DNA of 64,000 nt from an uncultured bacterium (GTDB taxonomy: Bacteria > Bacillota > Clostridia > Oscillospirales > Oscillospiraceae). Shown one piece after another: positions 53,214-64,000 of this stretch. Every line of letters starts with the position of its first letter. The stretch's first letter is position 1. Position numbers and translations under genes: made by a program. A model generated the notes under the pieces. The model searched no databases and was not told where the DNA came from. It saw only the letters and a list, made by a program, of their open reading frames with translations. Where the stretch lies: NCBI GenBank assembly GCA_949840775.1, contig CATKXO010000012.1:1-64000 (forward strand), read 5' to 3'.

Positions 53214-53273
53214 AAAACTGGCAAAATGTCAAGACTAAATTACAAAAAATTATAAAAAGTTTTTAATAGCCTT

Positions 53274-53312
53274 AAAAACGGGGGTCCCGCTCCAGGTTGG
53301 ATCCCCGTTTTT
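53274..53312 (+). terminator. Terminator of the gdpP-ftsH operon
   Basis: 14-bp stem AAAAACGGGGGTCC / GGATCCCCGTTTTT with one G-T pair. Confidence 0.9.
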
Positions 53313-53408
53313 CATGCCTCCACGGCGCTGGCGGTGCAAAAATGGCGCAAAGAATTGGCCGGCGTCCCTGGGCGGTTCCGGCCTGGTCCTTTTCCCGTGT
53401 TCAGCTGG

Positions 53409-54461
53409 TCAGGCCGCCACGGTCATGTATTCGTCATAAAGCATTTGCGGCGTTTTCCATCCCAGGATCCGGCGGGGATAGTTGGCCAGCCACTCCTCCA
53501 CCGCTGCCACCTCCGCCGCGCTTATATCGTCGAAGTTTGTCCCCTTTGGAAAAAACCGTCTTATGATCCGGTTCATGTTCTCATTGGATCCCCGTTCATA
53601 AGCAGAATATGGGTGACAATAAAAAATCTTTGTGCGCGGTTTCCTGGCCCGCTTGGATCGCTCCATCCCCGCGCAGTCCTGGAACTCGCAGCCGTTGTCC
53701 ACGGTGATGGAGCGGAAAACCTCCCGGAATTTTGCCCCCATGCGGCGCTCCATGCGGTCCAGCGCCCTGACCACGCTTTCCATGGTGTGATCAGGCACCC
53801 ACACAATGACGGGGTAACGGGTCAGCCGCTCGGTCAGCACCACCAGGGCGGCCTTGCTGCCCTTGCAACCCATAACGCTGTCCATTTCCCAGTGTCCTAT
53901 GGTTTCCCGGCTGTTGATCTCCTCCGGGCGGTGTTCGATGGTTTCCCCCTTTGGCGGTCTTGCCCATCCCTCGGTGTCCCGCTCTTTTTTGCCCTCGTTC
54001 CGGCGCTCCCCCTTATACAGCAGATCCCGCTCGGTCAGGTTTAGGAAAATATCCCCCCGATAGATCCAGTTGTAAAGGGTGGTTTCGCAGATTTCTGTAT
54101 CAAACTTTTTCCCGTCGATTTTGATTTGTGCCAGGGCCGCGCCTGGGGACCGCTTTTTATTTATGATCTGGTCCTCGATGTACTCCGCAAAAGCAAAATC
54201 TTTCCCCAGCTTAATGTCCGGCCCCTTGGCTCTCAAATTTTCCTGGTATTTCCGATCCGCCACGTCCGCGCAGTATCTTTCCACAAATTCGTATTCGCTG
54301 GTTTGCTGGACACAGAGGCCCCGCGCAATTTCATTATAAATCGTCTTTCTGCACTTCCCCAGGGCCTCCGCAATTTTGGCTACCGGGGTTTTTATTTTCA
54401 GCATTTTTTCAATGGTCCGCCGATCCTCCAGTTTTATGTGCTTTGTTCCTTCGTAATTCAT
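53409..54461 (-). CDS. IS30-family transposase
   Basis: 350-residue DDE transposase. The ATG at 54461 follows GGGGAGGC. N-terminal HTH: LEDRRTIEKMLKIKTPVAKIAEAL and GKCRKTIYNEIARG, as in IS30. Catalytic residues: Asp in HWEMDSVMGCKGSKA, Asp in ITVDNGCEF and Glu in SAYERGSNENMNRIIRRFFPKG, all with the IS30 spacing. Intact. It marks the boundary between the ftsH operon and the prophage-like block. I could not find convincing terminal inverted repeats by eye. Confidence 0.93.
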   Translation of the reverse strand: MNYEGTKHIKLEDRRTIEKMLKIKTPVAKIAEALGKCRKTIYNEIARGLCVQQTSEYEFVERYCADVADRKYQENLRAKGPDIKLGKDFAFAEYIEDQIINKKRSPGAALAQIKIDGKKFDTEICETTLYNWIYRGDIFLNLTERDLLYKGERRNEGKKERDTEGWARPPKGETIEHRPEEINSRETIGHWEMDSVMGCKGSKAALVVLTERLTRYPVIVWVPDHTMESVVRALDRMERRMGAKFREVFRSITVDNGCEFQDCAGMERSKRARKPRTKIFYCHPYSAYERGSNENMNRIIRRFFPKGTNFDDISAAEVAAVEEWLANYPRRILGWKTPQMLYDEYMTVAA

Positions 54462-54485
54462 AGCAGCCTCCCCATGGCATGACAA

Positions 54486-54515
54486 AACCGGCGCGGTGAA
54501 ATACCACGCCGGTTT
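54486..54515 (-). terminator. Terminator of the XRE regulator
   Basis: AACCGGCG.GG / CC.CGCCGGTT stem in the 50 bases between the XRE gene end and the transposase start. Confidence 0.55.
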
Positions 54516-54757
54516 CACTCTCTCCCCAGCAGCCACAACACGGAAACGTCCAGAATGTCCGCTATTGTGGTAACTTCATAATCCGCCACATACCTGCTGC
54601 CGCCCTCAATCCTGCTTATGCTGTCCCGCTCCATGGGGATCCCGATCAGTTGTAATTCTCTGCATAGGTCAGACTGTGAAAAGCGTTTCGCCAGGCGGGC
54701 CAGCCTTATGCGATCACCACAAATATTTCTTTTTCCGTGATATGTGTATGCCCTCAT
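54515..54757 (-). CDS. XRE-type helix-turn-helix regulator
   Basis: 80-residue single-domain repressor-like protein with GGAGGAAACC upstream. HTH: ICGDRIRLARLAKRFSQSDL, then LIGIPMERDSISRIEGGSR and ITTIADILDVSVLWLLG-like end. Resembles phage and mobile-element Cro/CI regulators. Probably controls the element's early genes. Confidence 0.85.
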   Translation of the reverse strand: MRAYTYHGKRNICGDRIRLARLAKRFSQSDLCRELQLIGIPMERDSISRIEGGSRYVADYEVTTIADILDVSVLWLLGRE

Positions 54758-57223: not shown

Positions 57224-58225
57224 TTATTTCACAGCCCCGCCCAGGGCGCACAGCAGCGCGTCCAGGCTGGGGAATGTGCTGTAATTGGCCAGCCAATAGT
57301 CCGACGTGTCGATCACGCCAGCGGCCACCAGGGTGCCCACGGCGTTGGCCACGGTGCTGGAGCGCGGCCCGGCCTTGGTGATCTTCTCCGCCGCCTTGAC
57401 CAGCAGGCGGTCCAAATACTTGACCTTGCCGGACGCGGCGGCCTGCTGCCAGTAGTCCGGGGAGTTGATCACGCCCAGCCGGGCCAGCTTGGCCACAGCT
57501 GCCGCCGCCTCGGTTAAATAGATCACCTGCCCCACCCGGATCAGGTTCTTGTTTTTGATCCCGTTGATGGCCGCCAGGGCGTCCACAGTGGTGCCATATC
57601 GGGCCGCGATCTTGCCCAGGGTATCACCCGCCACAACGGTGTGGGCGGTGCCCTTGGCCGTGCTGGAGGCCCCCGTGGTGCCCGGCGTGGTGCTGGTGGT
57701 GGTCCCGCCCATTTTCTTGGCAATCGCCGCAAAGTCAGGGCAGATAAACCCGCGAATATACCGGCCATTTATGGCCATGGTCCGCTTGCCCACCTTGCCG
57801 CCGCTCATGTTGCCCTCTGTCACCACAAAGGACCCGGCGGAAACCTTGGTCACGATCCCGATATGGTCCCCGGCTCCGGTGCAATCGCCCACGCCGTTGT
57901 CCTGCCAGTCATACACGCAGGCGTCCCCGATCTTGGGCGTGTGGGCGTCGTTCTCCACCCAAATGCCCAGCTTTTTGGCCACAATGGTGTATTTCTCCAC
58001 GCCGCACTCTGTCCCGGTGTAGGCGGCGATCCCGGCCCGGATATAGGCCGCGCTCACCGTGGTGGCGCAGTATGCGTCTTTCACCTGGACCTTGTACCCC
58101 CGCGCCAGGGGGCGGTAATTGTTGTATACCTCCAAAATGTCCAGGTGCTTGGCGCTGCCCTTGGTGGCCCCCACCCATGCGTTGATGGTGTCCGCCACTT
58201 TCTGGCGCAGTTGGTTCTCTGTCAT
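57224..58225 (-). CDS. Endolysin: CHAP-like amidase/peptidase with LysM
   Basis: 333-residue lytic enzyme. I take MTENQLRQKVADTINAWVGA, with AAGGGAGGC upstream. N-terminal CHAP/NlpC-like domain at about residues 15-165, catalytic Cys in VKDAYCATTVSAAY and His in GAGDHIGIVTKVSAG. A Thr/Ser-rich linker precedes a LysM domain at about 205-250 (HTVVAGDTLGKIAARYGTTV, INGIKNKNLIRVGQVIYL). The C-terminal 75 residues contain two repeats with a DYW motif (INSPDYWQQAA, IDTSDYWLANY), likely cell-wall binding. It cleaves host peptidoglycan at lysis. Confidence 0.92.
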   Translation of the reverse strand: MTENQLRQKVADTINAWVGATKGSAKHLDILEVYNNYRPLARGYKVQVKDAYCATTVSAAYIRAGIAAYTGTECGVEKYTIVAKKLGIWVENDAHTPKIGDACVYDWQDNGVGDCTGAGDHIGIVTKVSAGSFVVTEGNMSGGKVGKRTMAINGRYIRGFICPDFAAIAKKMGGTTTSTTPGTTGASSTAKGTAHTVVAGDTLGKIAARYGTTVDALAAINGIKNKNLIRVGQVIYLTEAAAAVAKLARLGVINSPDYWQQAAASGKVKYLDRLLVKAAEKITKAGPRSSTVANAVGTLVAAGVIDTSDYWLANYSTFPSLDALLCALGGAVK

Positions 58226-58241
58226 TTGTATGCTGCCTCCC

Positions 58242-58655
58242 TTACAGGCCCACGTCCGGGGGTTCCTCCCGCTCGGTGGGCGGGTCCATGGGCGCGGCCT
58301 GGTGGCCGCTCCCGCTTGTTTTGGCGGCCTCCGCCGCCTTGTCCTTGTTGGTCTTGATCCAGCCCATGACGCCGTTTTCAAACCCGCATACGCCGAACAC
58401 GCAGGCGGTCAGGGTGGACGGCTCCGCGCCGGTGTGCCAAAACACGGCCATGTCCGCCGCTGTGTAGGCCACCAGAATCACCGCCTCCAGGATCAGCACC
58501 TTGTCCATGGTTCCCATTTTCCCCTTGCCCCCGCCGCCGTCCGGCTGGAGGCGGCGGGGACGATACAGGCGCGGCCCCACGATCCGGCACAGTAGAAAAC
58601 CGGAAATGGTCCCCACGGCCATGGCCAGCGCGGCCACCACCACGGTGCCGGTCAT
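58242..58655 (-). CDS. Phage membrane protein, likely holin component
   Basis: 137 residues. The start MTGTVVVAALAMAVGTISGFLLCRIVG overlaps the preceding stop by 4 bases. Two hydrophobic segments: VVVAALAMAVGTISGFLLC and DKVLILEAVILVAYTAADMAVFW. The C-terminal part is charged and Pro-rich (PMDPPTEREEPPDVGL). Lies between the XhlA-like protein and the endolysin. Confidence 0.7.
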   Translation of the reverse strand: MTGTVVVAALAMAVGTISGFLLCRIVGPRLYRPRRLQPDGGGGKGKMGTMDKVLILEAVILVAYTAADMAVFWHTGAEPSTLTACVFGVCGFENGVMGWIKTNKDKAAEAAKTSGSGHQAAPMDPPTEREEPPDVGL

Positions 58656-58987
58656 GCCGCCACCGTCAGCAGGTAGATTAGGCCGGCACCCAGGGCGGTG
58701 ACAATCGCCCCCACCAGGCCATACAGCACCTTGTCCACCATGCCGTCCCACCGCTTGCCCGGTTTCTTTTCGATGGCGTCCACCTTTGTCCCCAGGGCGG
58801 TCACGTCGTTTTTGATCTCCCCCATGGTTTCGGTCTGGTGCCGCTGCTCCGTCGCCATGACCTCCACGGCGGTGGCCAGCCGGTTCAGGGTGTCCACCTT
58901 TTCGTCCATATCGTCCAGGCGGTGGGTGTTGGATTTACTCCGGGCGTCCACCTCCGCCAGCTTGACCGCCATTTCCTGCTCATTCAT
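58652..58987 (-). CDS. XhlA-like coiled-coil membrane protein
   Basis: 111 residues, GGAGGTGTG ribosome site. A heptad-rich coiled coil (NEQEMAVKLAEVDARSKSNT, RLDDMDEKVDTLNRLATAVE, VTALGTKVDAIEKKPGKRW) ends in one hydrophobic helix (VLYGLVGAIVTALGAGLIYLL). This is the layout of XhlA/hemolysin-type phage lysis proteins, which work with a small holin. Overlaps its neighbour at both ends by the ATGA pattern or a few bases. Confidence 0.85.
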   Translation of the reverse strand: MNEQEMAVKLAEVDARSKSNTHRLDDMDEKVDTLNRLATAVEVMATEQRHQTETMGEIKNDVTALGTKVDAIEKKPGKRWDGMVDKVLYGLVGAIVTALGAGLIYLLTVAA

Positions 58988-58990
58988 GCC

Positions 58991-59173
58991 TCACACCTCC
59001 AATTTTTCAACGGGGCCGCCGGTGGCCTCCGCGTATTTTTGCCGCAGGGCGGTGATCTCCCCCGCATGGGTCAGGGCGTCATACTGGGCCAGCTGTGTGG
59101 CCTGGTCCTGTATGATCACATTCTGCTGGTCAATGATGGCGCACAGGGCCGCGATCACTTCCACCTGGTTCAC
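58991..59173 (-). CDS. Small phage protein
   Basis: 60 residues starting at GTG that overlaps the upstream stop (GTGA). VEVIAALCAIIDQQNVIIQD forms a hydrophobic-amphipathic helix, then QLAQYDALTHAGEITALRQK. XkdX-like position between a tail-type protein and lysis genes. Function unknown. Confidence 0.6.
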   Translation of the reverse strand: MNQVEVIAALCAIIDQQNVIIQDQATQLAQYDALTHAGEITALRQKYAEATGGPVEKLEV

Positions 59174-59592
59174 CGCCGCCGCGCCCCCTTTGCGCCCACG
59201 CCGATCAGCGCGGCAATATGCCGCAGGTCCTCCACGGGGGCCTCGAAAAAGTCATGGGACCACACCCAAAAATCCGCGTGATCCGCCCGTCTGTACCGGC
59301 AGGCCATGGGATCCGCCCACAGCTTTGCCCACCGCTCCCCGTGGCCCTTGTCCCGCTTGGACACAGCGGCGATAATGGCGGCGGTCAGTTGGCCGCGCTC
59401 CAGCCCGTGGCCGTCGCCGTCCCTGGCGAAATATTTATGGGCGCTTTCGCTGGTGGCGGCGCACAGGCGCAGGCCGTCCCGCTCCAGGAAACCGTCCACG
59501 GCCTCCACGGTGGTGCCATAGGGGATATTTACCGGGCCGCAGATGGCATTAAACCGCGCCCGCCGGGCCGCTATGTATTGCACCCGCTCCAT
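59170..59592 (-). CDS. Phage protein of unknown function
   Basis: 140 residues, MERVQYIAARRARFNAICGP. Conserved-looking VNIPYGTTVEAVDGFLERDG, then GHGERWAKLWADPMACRYRR and HADFWVWSHDFFEAPVEDLRH. Starts 4 bases after the chitin-binding-like gene stop. Possibly a tail-associated or lysis-associated protein; the family is not recognised. Confidence 0.6.
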   Translation of the reverse strand: MERVQYIAARRARFNAICGPVNIPYGTTVEAVDGFLERDGLRLCAATSESAHKYFARDGDGHGLERGQLTAAIIAAVSKRDKGHGERWAKLWADPMACRYRRADHADFWVWSHDFFEAPVEDLRHIAALIGVGAKGARRR

Positions 59593-59595
59593 GGC

Positions 59596-60219
59596 CTACA
59601 CCTCCGCCACCACTTCCGTCCAGCCGTACACGCCCGGCTCCCACACGTTCCCGTCCTGGTCGCTGGTCCAGTGTTTCCCGCCGTGGCTCACCTTGTCCCC
59701 GGCGTTGTAGGCGTCATGTGCGCCCACCGGCGCGGACCACTCCGGCCACTCCTCCGCCGGGTCCGCCACCCGTTTCCACAGGCTGGGGGAGGCGTCCGGG
59801 GTCCAGTCCGCTTGTGAAGTGTGATCCTGCAGGCATTGGTACAGCTGGCCGTCCGTATACCGGCGGATATTCCCGGCCTTATAGGCCACCGGCACCGCCC
59901 AGGGGGCGAACAGGTCCGCGTGTTCCGCCGCCGTTGTGGCGTCAATGCTCCCGGCCTCCGCCAGCGTTACAAACATGATCCCGCCGGTTTCCGCCGCCCT
60001 GGTGATCTCGCTGCCCGCGTCGGTTTCCTCCAGCATGACAGTGGCCACCGCGCCCTCCATGTCCGGGCGGCCCAGCAGGTGGAAAACCTGGCCATTGTGG
60101 ACGATCCCCGCCGCCTCCGCCTCCTGGCACAAGGTAAAGCACCCGTTTTCAGCCCTGCGGACATAGCTGGGGGCCTCGGTCATGGCCACGGTTTCCCCGT
60201 CCCTGGTGATCTTATACAT
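59596..60219 (-). CDS. Phage tail-associated protein with two CBM5/12-like chitin-binding repeats
   Basis: 207 residues, AAAGGAGGAG upstream. The C-terminal half has two copies of the ChiC-type carbohydrate-binding motif: AYKAGNIRRYTDGQLYQCLQ with ADWTPDASPSLWKRV, and DAYNAGDKVSHGGKHWTS with GNVWEPGVYGWTEV. These aromatic-rich folds bind chitin or related glycans, and phage tail proteins use them to hold cell-surface sugars. The start overlaps the RT stop by 8 bases, so it is co-translated with the RT gene. Confidence 0.85.
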   Translation of the reverse strand: MYKITRDGETVAMTEAPSYVRRAENGCFTLCQEAEAAGIVHNGQVFHLLGRPDMEGAVATVMLEETDAGSEITRAAETGGIMFVTLAEAGSIDATTAAEHADLFAPWAVPVAYKAGNIRRYTDGQLYQCLQDHTSQADWTPDASPSLWKRVADPAEEWPEWSAPVGAHDAYNAGDKVSHGGKHWTSDQDGNVWEPGVYGWTEVVAEV

Positions 60220-61345
60220 GGTTTTCTCCTCCTTTGAATGTGGCATGAATGATCCGGCGCAGGTGCATGACCCGCCCGTGGTCGTCGAAATTTTCATAAT
60301 AGGCGATATGCCCCTGCAGCTGGTCCTCCGCCTGCTGGACGGTCATTTCCCCGGTGTCCACCCGCTTTTTATAAAGCCTGATTTTCCGCCGGGCCGCTTT
60401 CATTCCGTCCCTGGCCCCGTGGGTGATCACCCGTCCGGTTTCGGTCAGGTAAAACTTGCATTTGCAAAATCGGAAAGGCTTGTCCAGCGGCACAATATGG
60501 CATTTGTTCCGGTTGACCTGCAGGCCCATGGCCTCCGCCCGGCGGATCGTTTCCTCCATGATCTCCTCCGCCTGGGCGGGGCTGTCCAGCACCGTGGCAT
60601 AGTCGTCCATGTAATGCCCCGCGCCGTGGATGGACTTTTGACATTTCAGCCAGTTGTCCAGGCTGGAGGGCAGGGCCACCATTTCCTGCTGGGACGGTTC
60701 CACGCCCAGGGGCATACCCACGCCGCCCGGTACAGACGCCACCACGGTGTCCGCTATGGCCCGGATCTGTTCATTCAGGATCAGGTCCTGGTGGCGCTGG
60801 TAGATCAGGGCATGGGGCGCGGACGGGAAAAAGTGGTGAAAATCCATCAAGAACACGGCGCCCTCCCGCCCGTTCTTTCGGAACTGTTCCCGCAGCTGGT
60901 CCTCCAGCAGCTTGTAATGGAAATGCAGGCCCTTTCCCCTTTGGCTGGCCCCGTTTGCATAGATCATGCTGGGACCGTACAGCGGGATCAGGACATTATT
61001 GCAAAGGGTCTTGTGGATCTGGCGGTCATTGATGTGCGGCGCGTCAATGGGGCGTACTTTGCCACGCTCCCGCAGGGTAAAGTGGACATATTTGCCCGGT
61101 TTCCATTGGCCGGAAAGAACTTCCCGCCGCCGGCGGGCGGTGCCCGAAAACAGGTGGCGCTCAAAGTTTTGGGTGGACTGTTTCCACCTCACACCGTTGC
61201 AGCATTTCAGCCCATACCGGAACATATCCCGAAAACTGAAAACCTCCGCCAGTGTGCCCAGTCTGTCATTTCTGGCCTGTTTCCTGGCCTGCCGGGCCGC
61301 TTTCCGGCGTTGGTATCGCGCCTCCCGGCGCTCCTCGCTTGTCAT
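60212..61345 (-). CDS. Diversity-generating retroelement reverse transcriptase
   Basis: 377 residues, ATG at 61345 with GGGGAGCG some 12 bases upstream. Finger-palm motifs: KVRPIDAPHINDRQIHKTL, LMDFHHFFPS (first catalytic Asp) and GHYMDDYATV (YMDD). The DGR hallmark is LGVEPSQQEM, i.e. LGxxxSQ, where retrons and group II introns have QGxxxSP. RT motif 7 follows with NRNKCHIV and KFYLTETGRVITH. A basic N-terminus (RRKAARQARKQARN) suits RNA binding. No maturase, endonuclease or RNase H domain. With Avd it copies TR RNA into adenine-mutated cDNA. Confidence 0.96.
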   Translation of the reverse strand: MTSEERREARYQRRKAARQARKQARNDRLGTLAEVFSFRDMFRYGLKCCNGVRWKQSTQNFERHLFSGTARRRREVLSGQWKPGKYVHFTLRERGKVRPIDAPHINDRQIHKTLCNNVLIPLYGPSMIYANGASQRGKGLHFHYKLLEDQLREQFRKNGREGAVFLMDFHHFFPSAPHALIYQRHQDLILNEQIRAIADTVVASVPGGVGMPLGVEPSQQEMVALPSSLDNWLKCQKSIHGAGHYMDDYATVLDSPAQAEEIMEETIRRAEAMGLQVNRNKCHIVPLDKPFRFCKCKFYLTETGRVITHGARDGMKAARRKIRLYKKRVDTGEMTVQQAEDQLQGHIAYYENFDDHGRVMHLRRIIHATFKGGENHV

Positions 61346-61561
61346 ATATTTTTATTCGCTCCCCAGATAGTTGTCTTGTAGGTGTGCGTCTAAACTACTT
61401 TGACCCGGCACATGAAACGGGGTAAAGCACAATCCCCCGCCATGCAAGCAGCGTCCGTGCAAGGCCGCCAGGGGCAGTTTTAGGCTTTCGCCAGGGAAGT
61501 ATTTCTCCTTTTATACGGGTCCGGTTCACCTCATTGGTTACTGCATTTGACCCATGGTATA
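61346..61561 (-). ncRNA. Non-coding spacer between TR and RT: 3' part of the DGR template RNA
   Basis: 216 bases without a convincing gene, between the TR and the RT start. In BPP-1 the sequence downstream of TR is part of the template RNA and is needed for cDNA priming by RT-Avd. Here it contains GC-rich blocks and inverted CCTGGCGAAAG/CCCTGGCGG elements that could fold. Inferred role; no structure was computed. Confidence 0.55.
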
Positions 61562-61691
61562 AAATCCGGGCGCCTCGCCCCAGGAATTGTTCGCGTTGTT
61601 GTTGTTGGCGCTGCCGTTGGTGTTGACAAGGCAGAAATTGTTCGTGTTGCCGGAATTGACGGAACGGGTCCAGTGATTGGCAGCAGTCCCG
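61562..61691 (-). repeat. DGR template repeat (TR)
   Basis: 130-bp repeat that aligns without gaps to VR (62321-62450). On the coding (minus) strand it is rich in AAC/AAT codons, e.g. four in a row. TR and VR differ at 12 positions, all adenine in TR. Located between avd and RT, as in BPP-1. Confidence 0.97.
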
Positions 61692-61743
61692 TCAAAGGCC
61701 GCCCTGCCACACGGCACGTTTTCAGAAATACACCCATGACAAG

Positions 61744-62223
61744 CTATTTATTTTTTCTTCTCCTCCGCCGCAGTTCCGCGTCGCTTTGCATAGTCCCTTT
61801 TATCAGGTCGTCCTCCGTGTCGATCAGTTCCCCCAGGGTTTGGGCCATGGTTTCCAGGCGCTCCTCCGCCTCCTTTTTGGGGACCTTGTTTCCTTTGGCG
61901 TCCGTAAAGCACCCCTGCGGGTTCTTCATCATAACCATGTAACAATGGCACAGCTGCACGTCCAGGGCCATTAAAGCGCCCCGCGCTTGCAAAAGGTCCC
62001 TTTCCCGCAGGTCCAGGCGTATGTCGTTAGATGTAAAATAACTCTGCGCCTTTTCGGTGTAACTCACCAATTCCGCCGCCATTTTTATGGTTGGCTCCGC
62101 CAGCAGGCGGGAATACCTCGCGGAAAGACGGCTTAAAAAATTTATCGTTTCCGTGTAAATCTCATTGGCCGTATTCACAAATTCCGCCTTGCTGGTGGTT
62201 CGCTTATTTTTCAGGACGGACAC
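61744..62223 (-). CDS. avd: DGR accessory variability determinant (Avd), four-helix bundle
   Basis: 159 residues, AAAGGAGGAG upstream. Predicted helices with few breaks: FVNTANEIYTETINFLSRLS, YSRLLAEPTIKMAAELVSYT, LDLRERDLLQARGALMALDV, LETMAQTLGELIDTEDDLIK, and a basic tail RRRRRKNK. Helix content, charge and position between the VR-bearing target and TR are those of Avd proteins, which form a pentameric barrel that binds the RT and template RNA. It is longer than BPP-1 Avd (about 128 residues). The family call rests on context and helical pattern, since Avd proteins diverge strongly. Confidence 0.85.
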   Translation of the reverse strand: MSVLKNKRTTSKAEFVNTANEIYTETINFLSRLSARYSRLLAEPTIKMAAELVSYTEKAQSYFTSNDIRLDLRERDLLQARGALMALDVQLCHCYMVMMKNPQGCFTDAKGNKVPKKEAEERLETMAQTLGELIDTEDDLIKGTMQSDAELRRRRRKNK

Positions 62224-62264
62224 GGTTTTCTCCTCCTTTGGGCCTCTGCTCCATGCCCCCCTCT

Positions 62265-62284
62265 CCGCCCATTTTCATGGGCGG
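62265..62284 (-). promoter_or_regulatory. Hairpin with GAAA loop downstream of VR
   Basis: Coding-strand CCGCCCAT-GAAA-ATGGGCGG: 8-bp stem and 4-base loop, 28 bases beyond the target stop. BPP-1 and other phage DGRs need an inverted repeat with an 8-bp-range stem and a GRNA tetraloop downstream of VR for homing. Confidence 0.7.
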
Positions 62285-62311
62285 GATGGGGGCGGGATTC
62301 GCTGCGGCGGA

Positions 62312-63436
62312 TTAGACGGCAAAGCCGGGCGCCTCGCCCCAGGAATTGTACGCGAGGTAGTGGTCGGCGCTGCCGTAGGTGTTGACAAGGCAGAAACGGT
62401 TCGTGATGCCGGAATTGACGGAACGGGTCCAGTGATAGGCAGCAGTCCCGGTTTCCCCGTGCTTATACTTCACCTTGCTATTGCCTGCCTTATAGTAGGC
62501 ATATTGCAGTTGGAAATTCTTTTCCGCGCTGTTGGCGTATGTCCTGGCCCCGTGGTATTCAAACTCCGCCAGGTTGAAAAGATAGTCCGTGGTAGCCGTT
62601 ACATAGCTGGCATTATCGGACCCGCCGCCGGTGTTGTCGCTGTACTTGGTAACGGGTTTCATAACGGCCCGCAGGTCGGACGGCAGGGCAGCCAGCAGGG
62701 AGTTGGCCGGGGGGCTGGAGGGGGTCCCGCTGTTGCCCAGCAGGGTCTTTCTCATATAGCTGCCATTCCACCCGCCGCTGTTGCTGTTGTTGGGGTTCAT
62801 GTTGAAATAGCCGTTGCTGCTCTGGCCGGTGCCATACTGGTTATCACACAGGCAAACGTCTTTCCCGCCGATCTTTCCGATCTGGAAGTGGATCCGGTTG
62901 GTGCCCTCCCGGCTGCTGTTGTGGTTAAAGCCAATAATAAAGGCGTCAATGGCCAGGTTGGAAAAAGTGAAATTCCCCACCTTGCCGTTGATGGTGATCC
63001 GCTTGGTGTCGCCCAGGCTCCAGTAATTTTCACCCTGTCCAGCGTCGGAAACTTCCTTTATGGTGGCCCATGTATTATCACTCAGGGAGGTGGTTGGCAG
63101 GGTCACGGACACGCTGCAGGTCTTGTCCGCCGGGGCGGTGTGGTTGGTTCCCGCCGCCACCTTGACGGTAATGGTAGCGGTTCCCTTGGCCTTGGCGGTC
63201 ACAGTCACGATGGTTCCGGACACGCTCACCGTGGCCACGTTGGTGTTGCTGGAGGAGGCGGACACGGCCCCGTCCCCGTCCCTGGTCACGGAAATGGTGC
63301 CGGACATGGTGCCCGTACTCAACGCCAGGCTGGACTTGTTCAGGCTGGAGGATCCCGCCGCCTTGCCGATGGACCAGGCCACCGTCTTGGCCGCCGTGGT
63401 CCCGTCGCTCCACTGGTAATTGGAAACCGGGGTAGG
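62312..63436 (-). CDS. DGR target: Ig-like, DUF6273-like and C-type-lectin-like variable domain (frameshifted from tail sheath)
   Basis: 374 residues in this frame. It begins TPVSNYQWSDGTTAAKTVAW, then an Ig-like Big_2-type domain (SASSSNTNVATVSVSGTIVT), a DUF6273-like domain (GENYWSLGDTKRITING, IDAFIIGFNHNSSREGTNRI) and the variable CLec-type end HWTRSVNSGITNRFCLVNTY with SWGEAPGFAV at the C-terminus. VR covers the last 43 codons except the final three. There is no proper start in this frame (only an internal GTG without ribosome site), and it continues the sheath after removal of one base from the C5 run at 63435-63439. It is therefore the C-terminal part of a sheath fusion, read through a frameshift, phase-variable, or broken. 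Confidence 0.88.
   Translation of the reverse strand, partial: PTPVSNYQWSDGTTAAKTVAWSIGKAAGSSSLNKSSLALSTGTMSGTISVTRDGDGAVSASSSNTNVATVSVSGTIVTVTAKAKGTATITVKVAAGTNHTAPADKTCSVSVTLPTTSLSDNTWATIKEVSDAGQGENYWSLGDTKRITINGKVGNFTFSNLAIDAFIIGFNHNSSREGTNRIHFQIGKIGGKDVCLCDNQYGTGQSSNGYFNMNPNNSNSGGWNGSYMRKTLLGNSGTPSSPPANSLLAALPSDLRAVMKPVTKYSDNTGGGSDNASYVTATTDYLFNLAEFEYHGARTYANSAEKNFQLQYAYYKAGNSKVKYKHGETGTAAYHWTRSVNSGITNRFCLVNTYGSADHYLAYNSWGEAPGFAV
62321..62450 (-). repeat. DGR variable repeat (VR)
   Basis: 130 bp at the 3' end of the target gene. Relative to TR, coding-strand changes are 6 A-to-T, 4 A-to-C and 2 A-to-G, and none at G, C or T. Nine codons change amino acid (template Asn to Tyr x4, Ile, Arg, Asp, His, Leu) and one Gly codon is silent. 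The 3' end is the GC-rich block GGGGCGAGGCGCCCGG expected at the cDNA initiation side. Confidence 0.97.
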
Positions 63437-64000
63437 GGGCCATAAACGTGTGGGTGGAAAGGTGGCCGTTGATCAGGTTGGTGGCCGGGTTCTCGCTCTC
63501 CAGGAACTCCAGCCGGTAGCCGGCGCAGTAGTCGCGGGCCACATAGCCGTTGCCCACAATGTTCTGGCTGTCCACGATGGACCGGATCAGCCGCTTGTTG
63601 CCCGGCTTGTCCACTTTCTGGAAATATGTGCGGATAAAGTTGTTTCCGTCCCAGTCGAAGAAACGCCGCACGGCAAACCACATATCCTTGGGATCCGTGG
63701 TGGAGGGATAGGCCGCCGTCTTGTTCCCCCAGGACTTGAAACCGTTCACATTGATGGCGGTGGTGATCCCGTTGGCGTTCAACATATCGTTGGCCTGCTG
63801 CTGGTCCAGGACCACCTCGGTGCCGTCCGCCAGCACCGTGGCGGTGATCCGCAGGTCCTTATTGGACGGGCTTTCATAGGGCACGTCCGCATTGGTGGCG
63901 TCCGTGTAGGCGGTCAGGGCGCCGAACATTGCGGAATAGTGGTAAATCTTATCCCCCACCGCCACCATGGGCCACAGGGCCATGGCGTGGTTGGAACTTG
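63435..64000 (-). CDS. Phage tail sheath protein, C-terminal part (partial)
   Basis: Open to the right edge; about 188 residues visible before the frame goes astray. Sheath C-terminal domain features: DMWFAVRRFFDWDGNNFIRT, VDKPGNKRLIRSIVDSQNIV and THTFMAP, followed by a family-typical end that here runs into noncoding-like sequence. Contractile-tail sheaths polymerise around the tail tube, so the element is myovirus-like or a contractile tailocin. The frame stays open to 63078 but its translation after 63435 is Gly/Arg/His/Gln-rich and out of frame with the Ig-like domain. Confidence 0.88.

Follow-up and report, generated by a model that had tools for sequence, protein, structure and literature searches.

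A prophage diversity-generating retroelement with an RT-2 spacer RNA and, as assembled, a truncated target gene in an uncultured Oscillospiraceae bacterium

Overview

The stretch of 64,000 nucleotides analyzed here (the window) comprises most of contig C12 (CATKXO010000012.1), which ends at 64238, in the assembly GCA_949840775.1 of an uncultured Oscillospiraceae bacterium (2.61 Mb in 64 contigs, 97% complete). We hold with high confidence that it carries a genuine diversity-generating retroelement (DGR) of a prophage, likely diversifying a presumed tail-fibre gene by mutagenic retrohoming as in phage BPP-1. The reverse transcriptase (RT), together with the accessory protein Avd, would copy the RNA of a template repeat (TR) while misreading its adenines, and the resulting cDNA would replace the variable repeat (VR) in the 3' end of the target gene. 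A structured RNA between TR and RT, of the Rfam family RT-2, would recruit RT and Avd and prime the cDNA, as is reported for the BPP-1 spacer. The initial annotation, made from the letters alone, had described a complete DGR in a phage tail module between 60212 and 64000. The case for adenine-specific retrohoming that acts on a likely binding domain is strong: it draws on the TR/VR pattern, a comparison of strains, the RT clade, the predicted Avd fold, a hairpin and the spacer RNA. The order target, avd, TR and RT on the minus strand is indeed that annotated for BPP-1. The completeness of the system did not hold, as the assembled target lacks its N-terminal part. The features are listed in Table 1.

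Table 1. Features of the retroelement and its surroundings in the window.
Feature	Position	Strand	Evidence or remarks
Presumed IS30-like transposase, terminal phage gene at the prophage boundary	53409..54536	-	phrog_4646 6.3e-118 ('integration and excision', transposase); HTH_38; rve slightly below cut-off
Endolysin, CHAP and LysM domains	57224..58381	-	Pfam and PHROGs profile matches
Gene with carbohydrate-binding module 5/12, downstream of RT	59596..60219	-	PF02839 1.8e-16; start overlaps RT end
DGR reverse transcriptase, 377 aa	60212..61345	-	YMDD, LGVEPSQ; RVT_1 1.1e-12; phrog_1423 1.4e-69; best PDB sequence match 8ub7_A 9e-12
Structured TR-RT spacer RNA, RT-2 (RF03077)	61338..61555	-	158.6 bits, E 1.3e-38; covariation
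TR, 130 bp	61562..61691	-	34 adenines
avd-like gene, 159 aa	61744..62223	-	AGGAGG upstream
Hairpin behind VR	62265..62284	-	CCGCCCAT-GAAA-ATGGGCGG; 8 bp stem, GNNA loop
5'-truncated target: Big_2-like Ig domain, DUF6273, predicted C-type-lectin-like VR domain	62312..63382	-	PF19789 2.2e-5; Big_2 0.0015 (below cut-off); phrog_37900 residues 276-633
VR, 3' end of target	62321..62450	-	differs from TR at 12 positions, each a TR adenine; sole other TR match in genome
Sheath/target junction, out of frame	63433..63434		~2 bp common at join (by eye)
Tail sheath fragment without C-terminal end, running on to contig end 64238	63434..64000	-	phrog_23 2.5e-40, residues 190-451 of 496; other frame than target

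Adenine-specific differences between TR and VR

The largest direct repeat in the region 58000-64000 is the TR/VR pair that the initial annotation had named, with an offset of 759 and 118 of 130 identical positions (91%). Since all 12 mismatches coincide with TR adenines, which make up 34 of the 130 letters, the probability of this pattern by chance is 1.9e-8. The changes from TR to VR comprise six A>T, four A>C and two A>G, and 11 of the 12 differences lie in codon positions 1 or 2. No second VR was found, as a genome search with the TR gave no match besides the listed VR.

The same specificity is observed across relatives. Scans with the RT yielded 46 viral loci and 24 named-genome loci. In a set of 60 genomes, 13 (own genome counted) gave a match. 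From 93 loci with an RT match, 49 distinct TRs (that of the window included) with a TR/VR pair of at least 80 nt were kept, the others being cut by contig ends, having shorter pairs or being duplicates. Adenines account for 25% of the TR letters in these 49 loci and for 715 of the 747 TR/VR mismatches, and in 28 loci the mismatches occur at TR adenines exclusively. In reference phages paired neutrally, the mismatches at A amount to 16/16 in Roos, 13/13 in Dulem virus 34, 17/18 in Shimadzu, 18/22 in BPP-1 and 17/31 in Pioen. At non-adenine sites that differ between two TRs, the VR carries the base of its own TR in 157 of 162 cases (16 disjoint pairs, in a comparison of 38 TRs that are 110 nt or longer and have an RT identity of at least 48%); between the window and the viral contig L004 this is so at 5/5 sites. 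In one locus (L119), TR and VR differ at just 1 of 33 adenines, so that its VR is either nearly undiversified or freshly reset. A second type of DGR, in which the VR lies ~2 kb downstream of the TR, past the RT, occurs in six loci (L060, L067, L068, L069, L073 and L135).

Variation confined to TR adenines had been proposed as a check on reads mapped to the VR, which we carried out between natural strains instead. The TR is the same in the contigs L004 and L006, while 8 of their 51 common VR bases differ, all eight at TR adenines. Outside the VR, 52 of 3154 sites differ, of which 9 of 90 lie directly behind the VR (L004 2186-2275 versus L006 52-141) and 43 of 3064 farther off. The nine differences involve all letters and are not confined to A; hence, divergence is raised there too and not in the VR alone. 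The between-strain divergence of the VR itself fits active adenine mutagenesis in the population, as far as sequence comparison can tell.

Reverse transcriptase, Avd and hairpin

The initial annotation had recognized an RT with YMDD and LGxxxSQ, and both motifs are present in the listed open reading frame (ORF). The title of the PDB entry 8ub7, its best sequence match, reads 'DGR ribonucleoprotein reverse transcriptase'. In a tree, the RT clusters with DGR RTs and outside the five group II rows and two retron rows; the proposed clade check thus favors a DGR RT.

The avd claim rests on fold, as no match to Avd was found by sequence in Pfam or PDB and folds were therefore compared. With Foldseek on its own, no Avd hit reached E <= 0.001; the protein is predicted to fold like BPP-1 Avd, a four-helix bundle. 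The same structure predictions, proposed at the outset, assign the VR domain a likely C-type-lectin-like fold.

The sequence behind the VR reads CCGCCCATGAAAATGGGCGG, and its hairpin lies 36 nt past the VR. For phage DGRs, PMC3240598 describes a GC-rich hairpin with a GRNA loop behind the VR at distances of 4-34 bp, BPP-1 included; the GC-rich stem of 8 bp and GAAA loop of the window correspond to this description. A stem of at least 6 bp with a 4-nt loop occurs in 52 of the 63 loci compared, which are not independent (and without a shuffled control), and all 52 loops are GNNA, 34 of these being GRNA. The inventory of RT, avd, TR and VR in the initial annotation stands; the spacer RNA and the hairpin were not in it.

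RT-2 as the spacer RNA

The spacer between TR and RT matches RF03077 (RT-2) over positions 1-222 of 222, far above the gathering cut-off of 40 bits. At E <= 1 it is the sole Rfam listing in the window between 56000 and 64000, and RF03022 (Phage_DGR) gave no match there. RT-2 starts 6 nt behind the TR in the window and 4-7 nt behind it in Roos, Pioen, Shimadzu and Dulem virus 34. In an alignment of 35 of the 45 spacers at hand, 98.0% of the cells pair and compensatory changes are present in 18 of 32 pairs, a result reached by none of 500 shuffles, though these controls favor the structure, as it was derived from the sequences tested. A sliding control abolishes the covariation signal.

Across four scans, RT-2 exceeds its cut-off in 14/19, 12/12 (L044 being in both), 4/5 and 2/9 sources (L065, and L136 for a second time). 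Among 64 same-genus genomes, it does so at 10 places in nine genomes. It remains below the cut-off in BPP-1, VHML, crAss LMMB, ARM81mr, Toutatis, L060, L067, L068, L073 and L135, all with RTs less than 30% identical to that of the window; in the last five, which are the second-type DGRs that were scanned, no Rfam family exceeds its cut-off. Sub-cut-off matches to RT-2 directly before the RT are seen in L068 (22.7 bits) and Toutatis (21.9 bits). Other families appear at this position in more distant systems: the BPP-1 spacer is RF03022, 'Bacteriophage Diversity-Generating Retroelement RNA' (104.7 bits), while below the cut-off RT-14 is matched directly before the RT of VHML (L189 1378-1498; 37.6 versus 48.1 bits, E 0.088) and RT-17 before that of crAss LMMB (L190 1260-1352; 30.5 versus 40.4 bits, E 0.044).

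PMC12875486 describes the BPP-1 spacer as a folded RNA that recruits bRT-Avd and primes cDNA. By analogy, because RT-2 occupies the same position, it is most likely the scaffold and priming RNA of the DGR clade of the window. More broadly, we think it probable that RT-2 has this role in a large clade of gut-phage DGRs and that other orphan RT-n families (RT-14 in VHML-like and RT-17 in crAss-like systems) are its counterparts, beside Phage_DGR in BPP-1. The Rfam description of RT-2 names no function and merely presents an RNA named after reverse transcriptases. The RT-n motifs reportedly originate from Weinberg et al. 2017. A literature search of listings and selected passages, among them sections of PMC8143477, turned up no published link between RT-2 and DGRs, which may still be in print.

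Relation to known DGRs

The closest counterparts are the contigs L004-L007 from IMG/VR, which contain the same element with DNA 96-98% identical to the window; L004 differs by Ig repeats farther upstream and an N-terminal region, both absent from the window, and by a TR that deviates at eight sites. Dulem virus 34 (PP511788; RT 67% identical) shares an Ig-like target, an avd-size ORF, TR, RT-2 and RT, and its 13 TR/VR differences all fall on A. Unlike the window, it is a circular phage genome that is complete, the gene for its Ig-like target is long, and its avd and RT are annotated as hypothetical proteins. In the Faecalibacterium phages Roos, Pioen and FP_Taranis (RT 57% identical), the VR likewise lies upstream of TR and RT, although these are other phages with other hosts and the VR offset is ~1040 instead of 759. 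An RT-2 spacer RNA was looked for and found in Roos and Pioen. The Roos gene orf27, which holds its VR, contains DUF6273 as does the target in the window, but is a 546-aa ORF without a joined sheath piece. The DGRs of Roos and Pioen are reported to be active (PMC11792537).

BPP-1 (mtd-avd-TR-brt) is similar in gene order, mainly A-specific TR/VR differences, Avd fold, a GxxxSQ RT and a structured spacer RNA between TR and RT. It is distinguished by an RT only 22% identical over 71% and by its spacer RNA family (RF03022 instead of RF03077), and its target Mtd is a different protein.

Target gene and sheath junction

The VR lies in the 3' end of a gene whose product was modeled with a pLDDT of 93. 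Its VR domain is predicted to fold like a C-type-lectin-like domain; 9qa6 is the only C-type lectin chain among the structure matches listed, and as the Ig domain fills that listing, the absence of further such chains carries no weight. The target is presumed to be a tail fibre because it follows baseplate genes in relatives and because of how its Shimadzu counterpart is annotated, and its VR domain would bind the host surface.

As assembled, the target is truncated in its 5' part. Its first in-frame start is GTG 63382, without visible ribosome-binding site, whereas in-frame homology extends to 63434 and the match to phrog_37900 begins at residue 276 of 633 with nothing before. The 5' boundary of 64000 given earlier is thus too wide, as 63434-64238 is a tail sheath fragment. 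This sheath DNA is 96-97% identical to L079-L084 over 806 bp, and all six continue to the sheath end with TAA. Conversely, the alignment of L004 and L019 with the window ends at 63434, beyond which both continue with Ig repeats and, farther upstream, another N-terminal region. In L004, the N-terminal region (1-579) and the Ig/VR part (536-2194) are in two overlapping frames, perhaps through a frameshift or a sequencing error. The assembled locus is thus without the 5' part of the target and without ~9 kb of tail genes. In relatives, tape-measure and baseplate genes separate sheath and target; these genes were, like the target 5' part, not found elsewhere in the genome by DNA searches that scored the best 40 of 126 and the best 40 of 137 candidate places, apart from short weak matches on C8 and C11, so that the placement in a tail module is not supported in this assembly. 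A sheath profile search of the genome found one place.

Two explanations for the join deserve consideration. We give an even chance to an assembly or binning chimera near the contig end, in which case target and tail module would both be complete in the real prophage. The join lies just 804 bp from the contig end, its exact 26-base sequence occurs in none of the viral contigs, and head and tail module DNA of the phage type was not found on other contigs (best 40 of 137 candidate places). Near-identical Ig repeats in the target family (in L019, a second copy of 55 bp at 94.5%) could break assemblies. Moreover, at least seven homologues (P0121, P0125, P0128, P0131, P0132, P0134 and P0155, among 120 listed) have exactly the 356 aa of the target ORF in the window, and P0121, the sequence of which was read, has the same start, as if contigs stop there; such homologues may point to contigs that repeatedly break, or genes that are repeatedly truncated, at the Ig repeat. 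On the other hand, the ~2 bp in common at the join are shorter than an assembler overlap, and the sheath (96%) and the lysis arm (91%) both match a single phage lineage (G065), which makes both sides compatible with one phage.

Nearly as plausible, at somewhat less than an even chance, is a true deletion of ~10 kb, which would leave a decaying prophage with the DGR as an orphaned cassette. The relatives G034 and G022 contain 9.5 and 9.2 kb of tail genes, respectively, between sheath stop and target ORF start (in G034 an assembly chaperone, tape measure and baseplate genes, followed by a target ORF of 924 aa), and their absence from the rest of the genome, along with that of the target 5' part, would be expected after such a loss. 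Yet RT ORF, avd ORF, TR, spacer RNA and hairpin are intact, and an identity of 96-98% to the DNA of phage contigs makes any decay recent. Because the assembled target has no N-terminal part and abuts a sheath fragment in another frame, the cassette as assembled would no longer yield a usable fibre.

Compared with these, the idea that the RT derives from retrons, group II introns or DRT defence systems is dismissed as extremely improbable: profile matches are weak (group_II_RT_mat at 58.8 bits against a cut-off of 300; PADLOC RT and DRT models), the RT falls outside the retron and group II groups in the tree (which covers DGR, group II and retron RTs), and the adenine-specific TR/VR pair, the GxxxSQ motif, Avd and the hairpin all oppose it.

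Prophage context

The host element is a prophage with a contractile tail. Its boundary lies at ~53220, where similarity to phage contigs ends, adjoining the stop (53213) of an ORF that is ftsH-like by eye from its translation; at this point, the contigs L006 and L146 continue as other phage DNA, whereas the window continues as the ftsH-like ORF. The phage side of this junction, including the terminal transposase (53220-54536), is common to L006 and L146. This transposase, which we take to be of the IS30 family, may be the prophage integrase. The predicted number of promoters and terminators in the window about equals that of shuffled sequence. Despite the same sheath and lysis arm, G065 (L084/L146) carries another DGR with an RT ~30% identical to that of the window, which suggests an exchange of DGR cassettes among phages of one lineage.

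Implications

The DGR class itself is well known; of use here are the placement of an RNA family and the target that is broken as assembled. The latter is a warning, since a DGR that was described as complete has, in this assembly, a target without its front. The contigs L004 and L006 offer a natural case in which two phage contigs differ in the VR at TR adenines alone, and G065 indicates that DGR cassettes differ between phages that share sheath and lysis arm. For Rfam RT-2, the analysis proposes a likely function, for which the reportedly active phages Roos and Pioen are a suitable place to test. If the assignment of the RT-n families is true, every DGR clade would combine a common RT-Avd machine with an RNA architecture specific to that clade.

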